DNA from: Aquidulcibacter paucihalophilus
Lineage (GTDB): Bacteria > Pseudomonadota > Alphaproteobacteria > Caulobacterales > Caulobacteraceae
NCBI GenBank assembly: GCA_030285985.1
Contig: CP127384.1
Span: 976,001 to 1,040,000 of the forward strand
DNA length: 64,000 nt
Direction: 5' to 3'
Part shown: positions 37,810-42,611 of the stretch, one piece after another
Layout of the letters: the number at the start of each line of letters is the position of its first letter
How positions within the stretch are numbered: position 1 is the first letter of the stretch
Made by a program: the position numbers and the translations under genes
Notes under the pieces: model-generated
Told to the model about the DNA's origin: nothing
Seen by the model: only the letters and a program-made list of their open reading frames with translations
The model's database searches: none

Positions 37810-38062
37810 CTGCATCCGTCGGGCGACCGGCGGCGTAGCTTTGCTGACGGGTTCGTCGCGGCGCCGCGCAAGCGCGCCGTCTGGTCCTGACAGCCTGCGG
37901 GCCCGTCTGCGGGGAGGCCGTCCAGCCCTTCCAACACCGGTCTCCCCGCTACCTTTTCGCCGATTGTCAGCATAATCCGGTGACGCAGGCCATTGATGTT
38001 GCGCCATTTCATGGCGACGACAGCGTCATGAGCCCGCCTGAGGAAGGCCGCCCGCCAGACTG

Positions 38063-38085
38063 ATCTCCGACACGATTTCGGAGAT
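38063..38085 (+). promoter_or_regulatory. Perfect hairpin enclosing the ribosome binding site of the DUF2793 gene
   Basis: ATCTCCGA (38063-38070) and TCGGAGAT (38078-38085) form an 8-bp perfect stem with a 7-nt loop. The right arm contains GGAG, 6 bp before the ATG at 38090, so folding would hide the SD sequence. It could equally be a dyad operator in DNA. The rest of 37810-38062 shows no convincing gene. Confidence 0.55.
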
Positions 38086-38089
38086 TTCC

Positions 38090-39568
38090 ATGAGCGACGA
38101 TCACAGCGCGCGGCTGGCCCTGCCGTATCTGGCGGCCGGGCAGATGCAGAAGCACGTCACCCTGAACGAGGCCCTGACGCGGCTGGATGCCCTCGTCCAG
38201 ACCGTGGTGGTCAGCCGCACGACGACGGCCCAGCCGGGGGCACCGGGGGACGGGGCCCTTTGGATCCTGCCGTCCGGGGCAACCGGGGCCGACTGGAGCA
38301 CGCGGCCTGAAGGCGCGCTGCTGCGGGCGGAGGGTGGTGGCTGGACCGTCGTCCCGGCCGGCGACGGCCTGATTGCCCTGGTGGCGGACGCGGGAGAGGT
38401 CGTCGTGCGGCACGGCGGGTCATGGGTGCCGCTGGGCGCGCGGCTGGGCGTGGCCCAGGCACTGACCCGGCTCGGGCTCGGGACGACCGCGGACGCGGCC
38501 AATCCCTTTGCGGCCCGGCTGAACACCGCCCTGTGGACCGCGCTGGAGGCCTGGGCCGGGGGCACCGGAGACCTGCGGCTGACGCTGAACAAGGAGGCGG
38601 CCGGGGACGTCCTGTCGCTGCTGTTCCAGAGCGGCTGGGGCGGGCGGGCGGAGCTGGGCCTGGCCGGGGATGACGACCTCAGGCTGAAGGTCAGCGCCGA
38701 CGGTTCGAGCTGGCATGAGGCCTTTGTGGTCGACCGCGCCACGGGGCGGCTGACCCATGCGCTGGGTGCCGGACGCCGGGCCGTCTCGGTCTTGACCGCC
38801 GATGGGAGCTACGCCGTGCCCGCATGGGCGCGCAGCGTTGAGGCCGTGGCGGTCGGAGGCGGTGGCGGCGGCGGGGCCGGGGCCTTCGGCGCGTCCGGAT
38901 CGCGCTTCGGGGGCGGCGGGGGCGGGGCCGGCGGGATCAGCCGGGGCGCGTGGGCCGCGGACATGCTGGGCGGAACGCTGGATGTGGTCGTGGGAACCGG
39001 CGGGGCCGGCGGCAGCGCGGCCGGGGGCGCGAACGGCACCGACAGTACGGTCGTGATGGGCGGGCTCAGCCTGCTGGTCGCGGGCGGCGGTGGTGGGGGC
39101 GGGCAGGGAGACAGCACGAGCGGCGCGGCGGGAGCCGCCGGGGCGGGCGCTCCGGCCTGCAATGGCGGTGGGGCTTCCAGCGTCGCGGCGACGGGCGGGA
39201 GCGGTCGAAGCCTCGACCGACCGGACGGGCCGGGCGGCGGCGGGGCCGGCGGTGGTCTGGACGGTGTGGGCGTCGCGCGGGCGGGTGGAGACGGCGGTGA
39301 CGGCGGGGCGCTGGCGGTGAAGGCGCCTGGCGGAGGCGGCGGAACAGGCGCGGCGGGTGCGCCGGGGACGACGGCGCCGCAGCCGACCTTGCACTGGGCC
39401 GGCGGTGGCGGGGGCGGTGGTGGCGCAGCGGCTTCCGGTGCGGGCCATGCGGGTGCCGCGGGCGGGTCCGTCGGTGGCGGCGGCGGCGGTGGGGGAGCCG
39501 GGGTCGCCGCGGGTGGCAACGGCGGGGGCGGCGCGCCCGGCGTGGTCTGGCTGGTTGCCGTCGGATGA
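38090..39568 (+). CDS. DUF2793 phage/GTA-like protein with Gly-rich C-terminal domain
   Basis: 492 residues. The N-terminal DUF2793 region (RLALPYLAAGQMQKHVTLNEALTRLDALVQ) is a family found, as I recall, in phage and gene transfer agent tail regions of alphaproteobacteria. The C-terminal 240 residues are extremely Gly-rich, with repeated G-stretches alternating with short A/S/V segments, ending GVVWLVAVG; this resembles the polyglycine-helix domains of phage tail-tip adhesins. A structural or host-recognition role is inferred. It heads a fully overlapping operon with holin, endolysin and spanin genes. The RBS lies in a hairpin. Confidence 0.8.
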   Translation: MSDDHSARLALPYLAAGQMQKHVTLNEALTRLDALVQTVVVSRTTTAQPGAPGDGALWILPSGATGADWSTRPEGALLRAEGGGWTVVPAGDGLIALVADAGEVVVRHGGSWVPLGARLGVAQALTRLGLGTTADAANPFAARLNTALWTALEAWAGGTGDLRLTLNKEAAGDVLSLLFQSGWGGRAELGLAGDDDLRLKVSADGSSWHEAFVVDRATGRLTHALGAGRRAVSVLTADGSYAVPAWARSVEAVAVGGGGGGGAGAFGASGSRFGGGGGGAGGISRGAWAADMLGGTLDVVVGTGGAGGSAAGGANGTDSTVVMGGLSLLVAGGGGGGGQGDSTSGAAGAAGAGAPACNGGGASSVAATGGSGRSLDRPDGPGGGGAGGGLDGVGVARAGGDGGDGGALAVKAPGGGGGTGAAGAPGTTAPQPTLHWAGGGGGGGGAAASGAGHAGAAGGSVGGGGGGGGAGVAAGGNGGGGAPGVVWLVAVG

Positions 39569-39732
39569 GCCCTGCCATGAGCCGCTCCGAAGATCACACC
39601 GACCCCTGGCTGCTGGACGAGGAAGCCTGGGCGAGCCCCGGCCGTCTGAGCGAGGCCGATCTGTTTGCCCACGCCAGCCCGGGCTGGCGCCGGGGCGACG
39701 CACCCCTTGATGATCCGGAGGATGACCGATGA
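39565..39732 (+). CDS. 55-aa acidic protein in lysis operon
   Basis: Starts MSPAMSRSEDHTDPWLLDEE and ends with DDPEDDR; about a quarter of residues are Asp or Glu. The ATG overlaps the DUF2793 stop (ATGA) and its stop overlaps the holin start (ATGA), so it is coupled on both sides. A second in-frame ATG is at codon 5. No family is known. Its placement between tail and holin genes suggests a phage accessory or chaperone-like protein. Confidence 0.6.
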   Translation: MSPAMSRSEDHTDPWLLDEEAWASPGRLSEADLFAHASPGWRRGDAPLDDPEDDR

Positions 39733-40004
39733 CGACGCCTTCACTGCCGGGTGCCCCGCTGCTGGCCGAGGGTCGGTGGCTGTGGCGTCGGCTCTATGTC
39801 TTCGCGACCAGCGGGGCTGCCTGGCTGCTGCTTGACCGCCTGATCGCCGCGACGCCGCCCGAGGCGGTGCCGCGGCTGGCGCAGGGGCTGATGGCCCTGC
39901 TGGCGCTGGTGCTGGTTCTCTATCTGGTGGCCCCGACGGCCCAGCAGCTGATCGCGACGCTGGCCGTGCTGCGGCCCCGGATCGGTGGGGAGGGCCGGCC
40001 ATGA
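39729..40004 (+). CDS. Holin-like two-TM protein
   Basis: 91 residues with two predicted helices: LYVFATSGAAWLLLDRLIAA (about 24-43) and AQGLMALLALVLVLYLVAPT (about 53-72), and a basic C-terminal tail PRIGGEGRP. Size, topology and position before an endolysin without a signal peptide point to a class II-like holin that permeabilises the inner membrane. Holins lack conserved sequence, so this is by context. It overlaps neighbours at both ends through ATGA. Confidence 0.68.
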   Translation: MTTPSLPGAPLLAEGRWLWRRLYVFATSGAAWLLLDRLIAATPPEAVPRLAQGLMALLALVLVLYLVAPTAQQLIATLAVLRPRIGGEGRP

Positions 40005-40384
40005 GCTTTCGGCTGTCCGGGCGATCCCTCAAACGGCTGGTCGGGGTGCATCCGCGCCTCGTCGCCCTGGTGCGGGAAGCCGCCGCCCTGAGCCCGGTGG
40101 AGTTCATGGTGACGGAGGGGCTGCGCACGCCCGAGCGGCAGGCGGCCCTGGTCCGGGCCGGGGCCAGCCGCACCAAGCGGTCGCGTCATCTCACCGGCCA
40201 TGCGGTCGATGTGGCGGCTCTGGTCGACGGGCAGGTCCGCTGGGACTGGCCGCTGTATCCACGCATCGCGGCGGCGTTCAAGGCGGCGGCTGCGCGTCAG
40301 GGCACGGCCATGATCTGGGGCGGCGACTGGACCACCCTCAGGGACGGCCCGCATTTCGAGCTGGACCGGAGGGTGTTCCCGTGA
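40001..40384 (+). CDS. M15-type peptidase endolysin
   Basis: 127 residues. The M15 zinc site is visible: SRHLTGHAVDVAAL (H-x6-D type) near residue 66 and GPHFELD near 119; TEGLRTPERQAALV upstream is typical of phage T5-like L-alanyl-D-glutamate or D-Ala-D-Ala endopeptidases. There is no signal peptide, so the enzyme needs a holin to reach the peptidoglycan. Its start overlaps the holin stop and its stop overlaps the next GTG. Confidence 0.85.
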   Translation: MSFRLSGRSLKRLVGVHPRLVALVREAAALSPVEFMVTEGLRTPERQAALVRAGASRTKRSRHLTGHAVDVAALVDGQVRWDWPLYPRIAAAFKAAAARQGTAMIWGGDWTTLRDGPHFELDRRVFP

Positions 40385-40866
40385 GGGCTCCGGCGCTCCT
40401 GCGAACCCTGACTCCCTGGGGCTGGGGGCTGGTCGTGGCCGGTGTGCTGGCTGCGGTGCTGGTCGGCCTGCACGGACTGGGCTTTCGATGGGACCCGCTG
40501 GGGCTGGCGGAGCGACGGCTGCGCTCTGCCGAGGCGAAGGCCTCCGCCGCGGTCGAGGACGCCGCCGCGCGCCGGCTCGAGGTCGCGGGTGCCGCCGAAC
40601 AGGCCCGGCGTCTCGAACACCTTCATCAACTGACCGTGACGGTCGCGCGCGAGACCGCGCAGGCCACGACGCAAGCCAGGAGCGCCCCTGATGCCGATAC
40701 CCCGCTGGACCCTGATCGTGTGGCTCGCCTTGCCGGCCATGACCGCGAGCTGTGCCGTCTCGCGCCCGCCGTCTGCGGAGCCGCCGCGGCTGACCCTGCC
40801 GGAGACGGCGACAAGGCGGTGCGTGCTGGCGCGGTTGCCGGACGCGCCGACGATCGCCGATCTTGA
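40381..40866 (+). CDS. Rz-like inner-membrane spanin subunit
   Basis: 161 residues from a GTG that overlaps the endolysin stop. An N-terminal TM helix (WGWGLVVAGVLAAVLVGLHG, about residues 13-32) is followed by a long charged helix with heptad character (LAERRLRSAEAKASAAVED to RRLEHLHQLTVTVARETA). This TM plus periplasmic coiled coil is the layout of Rz proteins. The Rz1-like gene is nested in another frame of its 3' part, as in lambda. Spanins fuse inner and outer membranes in the last step of lysis. The call rests on topology and order. Confidence 0.68.
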   Translation: MRAPALLRTLTPWGWGLVVAGVLAAVLVGLHGLGFRWDPLGLAERRLRSAEAKASAAVEDAAARRLEVAGAAEQARRLEHLHQLTVTVARETAQATTQARSAPDADTPLDPDRVARLAGHDRELCRLAPAVCGAAAADPAGDGDKAVRAGAVAGRADDRRS

Positions 40867-41014
40867 GATCGCCTACGTCGAACGCGGTGCCCAACTGGTG
40901 GCCTGCGAGCTGGCCCGGGCCGCAGCGGTCGATACCCTCATGGCGGAGCGGGCGCTGCAGGATCGTTGGCGGCGGGAGGCCGGGACACGGCACGGACCGA
41001 CAGTCTGGCCCTGA
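40691..41014 (+). CDS. Rz1-like outer-membrane lipoprotein spanin subunit
   Basis: 107 residues, starting inside the Rz-like gene in the +1 frame and overlapping it by 176 bp. The signal peptide PRWTLIVWLALPAM ends in a plausible lipobox T-A-S-C at about residue 21, followed by a Pro-rich stretch (SRPPSAEPPRLTLPE). The body is charged and helical. Nested out-of-frame lipoprotein genes with a Pro-rich tail are the hallmark of Rz1. The lipobox is not ideal (T at position -3). Confidence 0.65.
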   Translation: MPIPRWTLIVWLALPAMTASCAVSRPPSAEPPRLTLPETATRRCVLARLPDAPTIADLEIAYVERGAQLVACELARAAAVDTLMAERALQDRWRREAGTRHGPTVWP

Positions 41015-41191: not shown

Positions 41192-41207
41192 TGGCCCTGT
41201 CCTTGCT
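41192..41207 (+). promoter_or_regulatory. Sigma-54 promoter of flagellin 1
   Basis: TGGCCCTGTCCTTGCT has GG at 41193-41194 and GC at 41205-41206 with exactly 10 bp between, matching TGGCAC-N5-TTGC. The start codon is about 80 bp downstream. Confidence 0.8.
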
Positions 41208-42595: not shown

Positions 42596-42611
42596 TGGCT
42601 CCGTCCTTGCT
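42596..42611 (+). promoter_or_regulatory. Sigma-54 promoter of flagellin 2
   Basis: TGGCTCCGTCCTTGCT has GG-N10-GC spacing and shares CCNGTCCTTGCT-like sequence with the flagellin 1 promoter. The ATG is 75 bp downstream. Confidence 0.8.

Follow-up and report, generated by a model that had tools for sequence, protein, structure and literature searches.

A DUF2793 fibre gene chained to a predicted lysis cassette: a probable auxiliary locus for gene transfer agents in Brevundimonas

Introduction

Cells that produce gene transfer agents (GTAs) are known to burst by different mechanisms, a holin-endolysin pair in Rhodobacter capsulatus and the LypABC proteins in Caulobacter crescentus having been described (PMC7296036, PMC13236601). 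Here we analyze a 64,000-nucleotide stretch of a Caulobacteraceae chromosome (hereafter the window; bases 976001-1040000 of the 3.10-Mb single-contig genome CP127384.1), in which a tail-fibre-type gene of the DUF2793 family heads an overlapping chain of genes that includes a predicted lysis cassette. We propose that this fibre-and-lysis module is probably an auxiliary locus of the Brevundimonas GTA, serving receptor binding and lytic release. For a large genus that is sister to Caulobacter, the operon offers a concrete candidate for how GTAs are released, and it ties lysis to a predicted receptor-binding fibre in a single overlapping gene chain.

The GTA of R. capsulatus (RcGTA) has its fibre gene at one locus and its holin and endolysin genes at another, unlike the arrangement described here, where fibre, holin candidate, M15 endolysin and spanin candidates share one operon. 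The two systems are alike in the families of their structural core and in having a DUF2793 tail fibre, which has been named as the RcGTA fibre and is described as co-evolving with the GTA genes (PMC10883770), and RcGTA particles are likewise described as being released by a phage-derived holin and endolysin (PMC7296036, PMC10883770). The GTA of C. crescentus (CcGTA) comes from the same host family and has GafY/GafZ activators and a distant tail-fibre homologue (PMC9632790, PMC11150451), but its authors report that their searches found no holin or endolysin homologue in C. crescentus, where lysis needs the CARD-NLR-like LypABC system; of 11 Caulobacter species with a GTA, four are reported to have complete lypABC (PMC13236601). 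The C. crescentus gene ccna_02456 is described as a homologue of the tail-fibre gene of R. capsulatus and as induced by GafYZ (PMC9632790); from this and the naming of DUF2793 as the RcGTA fibre (PMC10883770) we infer that it is the DUF2793 gene, and C. vibrioides has a PF10983 match. A search of the genome analyzed here for LypB-type proteins with AAA_16 gave 29 matches and was uninformative, AAA_16 being a generic ATPase family.

Two further systems invite comparison. The chromosomal cassettes of the type 10 secretion system (T10SS), ChiWXYZ of Serratia and YenLC of Yersinia entomophaga, are described as sets of holin, endolysin, Rz and Rz1 outside a prophage, in the order predicted here (PMC10847048). 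The M15 gene and the chromosomal setting fit such a cassette, the holin and spanin candidates by their topology; unlike the T10SS sets, the operon here is headed by a GTA-type fibre gene, lies in a genome with a GTA core, and has no identified secreted cargo. Phage lysis cassettes with M15 endolysins resemble it in the M15 protein (up to ~66% identity) and in Rz/Rz1 nesting, and differ in that no phage relative of the holin was found and no replication or packaging genes occur among the tested neighbours. For Caulobacteraceae, Brevundimonas included, our searches of the open-licence literature turned up no paper that describes a lysis cassette next to the fibre gene of a GTA.

A fibre gene and a predicted lysis cassette in one chain

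The module consists of six plus-strand open reading frames (ORFs; Table 1), linked by ATGA overlaps at the DUF2793/p55, p55/holin and holin/M15 junctions and by a GTGA overlap at M15/Rz. An earlier note on this DNA had described just such a chain, and the ORF listing of the window confirms every ORF and overlap. The DUF2793 protein, to which the note ascribed a polyglycine tail, has a glycine-rich C-terminal half. It is the only PF10983 match in the whole genome. In the Protein Data Bank (PDB), it matches 8gtc_S at 6.9e-12, a chain that is labelled there as Ribonuclease III in an entry that its paper lists, for roseophage R4C, as the distal tail and baseplate. The small acidic protein that follows, p55, matches no Pfam or PHROG family, and tblastn recovers homologues in some, though not all, of the compared loci.

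Table 1. Features of the module and of the GTA genes on the same contig. Positions are those of the window unless given in kb of the contig.
Feature	Position	Strand	Length	Basis
Leader hairpin	38062-38086	+		GATCTCCGA-7-TCGGAGATT, stem of 9, directly 5' of the DUF2793 start codon
DUF2793 tail-fibre-type protein	38090-39568	+	492 aa	PF10983 1.3e-22; Gly_rich_2 2.3e-8
p55, acidic, role unassigned	39565-39732	+	55 aa	ORF; ATGA overlaps at both ends
Holin candidate, two-helix hairpin	39729-40004	+	91 aa	AlphaFold2 topology; gene order
M15 L-Ala-D-Glu-type peptidase, predicted endolysin	40001-40384	+	127 aa	PF13539 9.4e-13; phrog_465 4.2e-57
Rz-like inner-membrane spanin candidate, GTG start	40381-40866	+	161 aa	Model topology; overlap with M15
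Rz1-like outer-membrane lipoprotein spanin candidate	40691-41014	+	107 aa	Nested in Rz, different frame
Sigma-54-like -24/-12 sites	41192-41206; 42596-42610			TGGCNC-N5-TTGC
Module	1,014.1-1,017.0 kb
RcGTA-type structural cluster	~930.2-947.4 kb			Terminase 1.4e-33; portal 8.9e-59; prohead protease; HK97 capsid 5.5e-117; connector; GTA-gp10; TIGR02217; TIGR02218 hub; NlpC/P60; GTA_TIM megatron 2.8e-126
gafY-gafZ-like pair	802-803 kb		118 aa; 242 aa	DnaA_C 1.9e-4, below cut-off; DUF6456 1.5e-30

Besides its Pfam family and the PHROG endolysin family phrog_465, the M15 protein matches the T10SS endolysin ChiX (5OPZ) at 9.6e-38 in the structure database, it has no apparent signal peptide, and the motifs SRHL.GHA.D and GPHFEL are invariant across 34 aligned sequences (a start-less homologue, from G164, was excluded); the cassette has a predicted endolysin of the signal-less M15 type that the earlier note had called. 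The holin candidate and both spanin candidates are identified by topology, gene order, nesting, overlap and weak profiles. In its AlphaFold2 model, the holin candidate forms two helices (residues 11-41 and 44-84; mean pLDDT 79.3, pTM 0.40); Pfam and PHROG searches returned nothing above cut-off, and the organism names among the best 120 of its 663 homologues are Brevundimonas or Alphaproteobacteria. The model of the Rz-like protein has a helix of transmembrane length (12-32) followed by a long helix (42-101; mean pLDDT 77.8, pTM 0.34). Nothing above cut-off was found for it: its best PHROG match is a transposase (E 0.055), with an Rz-like spanin second (E 0.4), its best Pfam match reaches only 0.072, and its profile gives 0 matches in the PDB. 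The Rz1-like protein has no Pfam family and a weak match to the spanin family phrog_456 (E 0.01), and all 28 aligned homologues carry a cysteine at the lipobox position, followed by a proline-rich stretch; a relative in G083, ~40% identical, matches LysC at 1.3e-4, below cut-off. Put to profile searches and structure prediction, the calls of the earlier note fared unevenly: M15 and the tail fibre passed, and topology, gene order, nesting and the conserved cysteine fit a holin and a spanin pair, but holin and Rz lack any above-cut-off family and the profile match of Rz1 is weak.

A GTA core and activator-like genes on the same contig

The earlier note had surmised that a retained lysis and receptor-binding unit might serve a GTA encoded elsewhere, and had pointed to a structural cluster and gafYZ-type genes as what to look for; such a cluster and a gafYZ-like pair lie on the same contig. 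The end of an RcGTA-type cluster is 28.6 kb upstream of the window and ~67 kb upstream of the module, with ten genes, from terminase to megatron, having family matches and some small ORFs having none. With this core and a DUF2793 gene outside it, the locus has the predicted make-up of an RcGTA-type auxiliary locus. Within the cluster, about 4 kb (933.5-937.6 kb) between the prohead protease and capsid genes hold minus-strand ORFs and ORFs that do not look phage-like.

Further upstream, a 118-aa ORF overlaps a 242-aa ORF whose family, DUF6456, we take to be the mark of GafZ. GafY and GafZ are each described as one half of GafA, with GafY similar to DnaA domain IV (PMC9632790); the pair fits this account, and we read it as gafY-gafZ-like. 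The physical linkage of module and core is not conserved: among 30 hand-picked genomes with both on one contig, they lie within 100 kb of each other in nine, and the median distance, ignoring circularity, is 1.2 Mb.

The co-occurrence of DUF2793 with the GTA core is strong. Among 149 Caulobacteraceae genomes, 66 have both DUF2793 and the core marker TIGR02217 and 71 have neither, with three having the GTA marker only and nine DUF2793 only; outside the genus, the corresponding numbers are 45, 71, three and six (the Fisher test on these counts ignores kinship). Together with the core on the same contig, this association supports the retained unit that the earlier note had envisaged.

From the known roles of the holin, M15 and spanin families, we propose the following mechanism. 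Producer cells would switch on the module and the GTA cluster jointly through GafY-GafZ-type activators, a co-expression suggested by analogy with the GafYZ-induced fibre homologue of C. crescentus (PMC9632790). The DUF2793 protein would act as a tail fibre docking on the baseplate made by the distant GTA cluster. The two-helix holin would then open the inner membrane, allowing the signal-less M15 enzyme to pass through and cleave peptide stems within the cell wall; as the last step, the Rz/Rz1 pair, nested genes whose products join inner and outer membranes, would open the envelope by spanin-driven fusion. The particles released would carry DUF2793 fibres. Lytic function, the roles of holin and spanins, co-regulation and the incorporation of the fibre into the GTA particle are all predictions of this model.

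Conservation of the module in Brevundimonas

A search of genome contigs with the holin profile yielded 83 relatives, of which the best 80 were kept, giving 79 loci. All carry Brevundimonas or higher-rank names, apart from one labelled as a Bordetella metagenome-assembled genome, and the cassette is typical of Brevundimonas. M15 was found in 77 of these loci, Rz in 70 and Rz1 in 68, the cassette genes that were found all being on one strand; where there was room to look, DUF2793 precedes the cassette (50/52) and a flagellin gene lies downstream (70/74). The overlaps are kept as well, at holin/M15 in 72 of 73 loci and, as a 4-base overlap, at M15/Rz in 68 of 69, and Rz1 starts inside Rz in all 68 measurable loci. 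Gene order and overlaps, whose comparison the earlier note had suggested, thus hold across the genus.

That the module belongs to an intact prophage or a recent phage insertion is hardly credible: genes for a tail fibre, a holin, an endolysin and spanins are usual in phages, but chromosomal genes lie on both sides of this cassette, the flagellin synteny is conserved, and no related holin occurs in 50,697 phage records, nor was any relative confirmed by pattern scan in IMG/VR viral contigs. The earlier note had stated that the window holds no integrase, terminase, portal, capsid or tail-tube gene and that the flanks are ordinary chromosomal genes. This stands for the module's neighbours, which define the scope of the test rather than the whole 64 kb: no integration or structural phage genes were found among those tested, and none of the relatives' loci that were compared, with flanks matched against the window's own genes only, showed the module inside a prophage.

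Across 131 genomes of the genus, M15 has a match in 115 and TIGR02217 in 107 (103 above cut-off). We counted M15 as orthologous in 111 genomes, including one partial gene (G211) and setting apart four genomes with a match of 44-51% identity only. Orthologous M15 is present in 95 of the 107 genomes with the core marker and in 16 of the 24 without it (Fisher p 0.012, kinship ignored). In all 19 GTA-bearing loci examined, the reading frames of holin and M15 are open; in four of the 19, Rz and Rz1 are not recognizable, and the spanins may for that reason be dispensable or replaced there.

Evidence against the GTA reading, and its rivals

Several observations weigh against an auxiliary GTA locus. 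Twelve of the 107 GTA-bearing genomes lack orthologous M15, two-thirds of the genomes without TIGR02217 (the 16 of 24 above) retain it, and in 13 of these 16 both holin and M15 are open (in another, G097, the holin is off the contig). The distribution of the DUF6456 activator, which 125 of the 131 genomes have, does not follow that of the core, and in nine loci of other genera an ORF listing, made without hidden Markov model searches, showed no lysis gene after DUF2793. The lack of holin relatives among phage records counts here too, as does the modest constraint on most of the genes: while M15 has the lowest median ratio of nonsynonymous to synonymous change (pN/pS; 0.33 across 561 pairs whose pS is close to saturation), the medians are 0.53 for the N-terminal part of DUF2793, 0.64 for the holin, 0.65 for p55, 0.68 for Rz and 0.70 for Rz1, these ratios being inflated at a pS of ~0.45-0.61 and the Rz and Rz1 genes sharing bases.

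The persistence of the endolysin without the core marker is also what would be expected of a T10SS-like self-lysis cassette that frees some cytoplasmic cargo from a small minority of the cells, the fibre gene being a relic or itself the cargo, and an independent lysis role is conceivable on that account. As an explanation of the module, however, we consider self-lysis unlikely, since DUF2793 precedes the cassette at nearly all loci, the gene coupled to it encodes a tail fibre and the operon showed no gene for a secreted cargo, M15 also matches 1,210 of the 50,697 phage records (best identity 65.6%), and in some other genera the lysis genes behind DUF2793 belong to other families.

How far the core itself has gone from the 24 genomes without TIGR02217 was gauged with a megatron probe, which finds some match in 19 and none in five, so that the core has decayed in most, not all, of them. 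Megatron is nearly full-length in G097, G222 and G226, of which G097 and G226 keep M15, and partial in G156 (residues 1-792) and G255 (148-1237); 14 genomes, including G143, G194, G204, G230 and G254, match in the C-terminal part only, some of these matches ending at contig ends. Megatron being the last gene of the GTA cluster, such remnants would mean that the cluster either decayed from its 5' side or kept its final part.

We consider it quite improbable that an old prophage is decaying here, its remnant stranded beside the flagellins without present function. The phage-type genes would suit this, as would the defects seen: Rz1 is unrecognized in three of the 16 M15-bearing genomes without TIGR02217 (one of which, G187, has a short Rz and is missing Rz1) as well as in four of the 19 GTA-bearing loci, and two of the 16 lack a start codon, that of M15 in G164 and that of the holin in G204. 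Yet holin and M15 stay open wherever GTA-bearing loci were examined, overlaps and catalytic motifs are conserved, the module keeps the same location across most of the genus, its holin lacks homologues in phage records and confirmed ones in viral contigs, and in the five closest pairs pN/pS is low for M15 (0.08-0.32; holin 0.05-0.21, Rz 0.28-0.70, Rz1 0.25-0.79).

Other lysis genes behind the fibre gene

We retrieved 20 loci around DUF2793 or M15, of which 15 belong to genera other than Brevundimonas. Three of these 15 have lysis families unrelated to the Brevundimonas set within 4 kb downstream of DUF2793: a Phage_lysozyme gene lies a few ORFs after it in G028 (1.9e-11) and in G011 (3.5e-15), the latter with an Rz-like gene and a LysC/Rz1 match (5.9e-9), and in G014 a phrog_1356 holin (2.1e-17) follows immediately. 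What follows in G012, G016 and G068 is limited to proteins of membrane or phage type with no assigned function. The nine loci with no lysis gene seen comprise four from g22, presumably Caulobacter, two each from g20 and g2, and one of three from g14.

These loci suggest that lysis genes are swapped at the fibre-gene site, and lead us to a wider reading that we offer tentatively, at somewhat less than an even chance: GTA release in Caulobacteraceae would depend on an exchangeable cartridge behind the fibre gene, made up of holin, M15 and spanins in Brevundimonas and, in some other genera, of a GH24 lysozyme accompanied by spanins or of small membrane proteins, with nothing seen in the presumed Caulobacter, where LypABC or another system would have taken over. 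In some Brevundimonas, the cartridge would outlive the particle as a lysis programme of its own, and the operon offers a handle on whether genomes losing the GTA core keep that programme for other use.

Four Brevundimonas genomes, those set apart above for their weaker M15 matches (G083, G205, G245 and G162), have the GTA core and possibly a second type of lysis cassette. In G083, M15, Rz and Rz1 sit between an anti-sigma gene, with two genes intervening, and an endonuclease/phosphatase gene, and DUF2793 lies elsewhere; these surroundings look like those of the Brevundimonas cassette.

Leader, promoter region and chromosomal neighbours

The hairpin directly before DUF2793 folds at -11.1 kcal/mol, as against a shuffle mean of -1.8, and holds the GGAG ribosome-binding sequence within its 3' arm; it may exert translational control of the fibre gene. 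Of 57 distinct 50-nucleotide DUF2793 leaders in the family, 29 have a comparable hairpin at p<=0.05 (100 shuffles each) and four have none; stem sequences vary between genera, and covariation inside the genus is weak. Within the genus, a CA-ACTG box lies 5' of the hairpin. In 16 aligned module upstream stretches, the hairpin is preceded by a CAGACTGAT-like box, and those loci with an upstream anti-sigma gene have a further common stretch. The upstream stretch of the GTA core contains CATAGT, the reverse complement of ACTATG, the hexamer mutated in the C. crescentus GafY element; neither form occurs in the 300 bases upstream of the module. Nothing in the alignment of the 16 stretches could be tied to the core promoter, and since a lone hexamer is likely to arise by chance, we draw no regulatory link between module and core.

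The tested upstream neighbours are chromosomal, of polyA-polymerase/CCA, endonuclease/phosphatase, DUF4112, extracytoplasmic function (ECF) sigma and anti-sigma types, and those downstream are three flagellins and FlaG; one neighbouring ORF of 902 aa has no Pfam family. The earlier note had seen meaning in the flagellin neighbourhood, and this found no support. The first two flagellin genes look separately transcribed, because each has its own sigma-54-like site ~80-90 bp 5' of its likely start codon (two such matches in the window as against 0.85 expected, a number that 21 of 100 shuffles reach), and the adjacency looks positional.

After the anti-sigma gene, at 37880-37965, lies a long hairpin rich in GC, whose loop (CCAGCCCTTCCA) is conserved in part. 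It has no Rfam match at gathering scores, and is visible by eye in 5 of 15 relatives aligned upstream of DUF2793.

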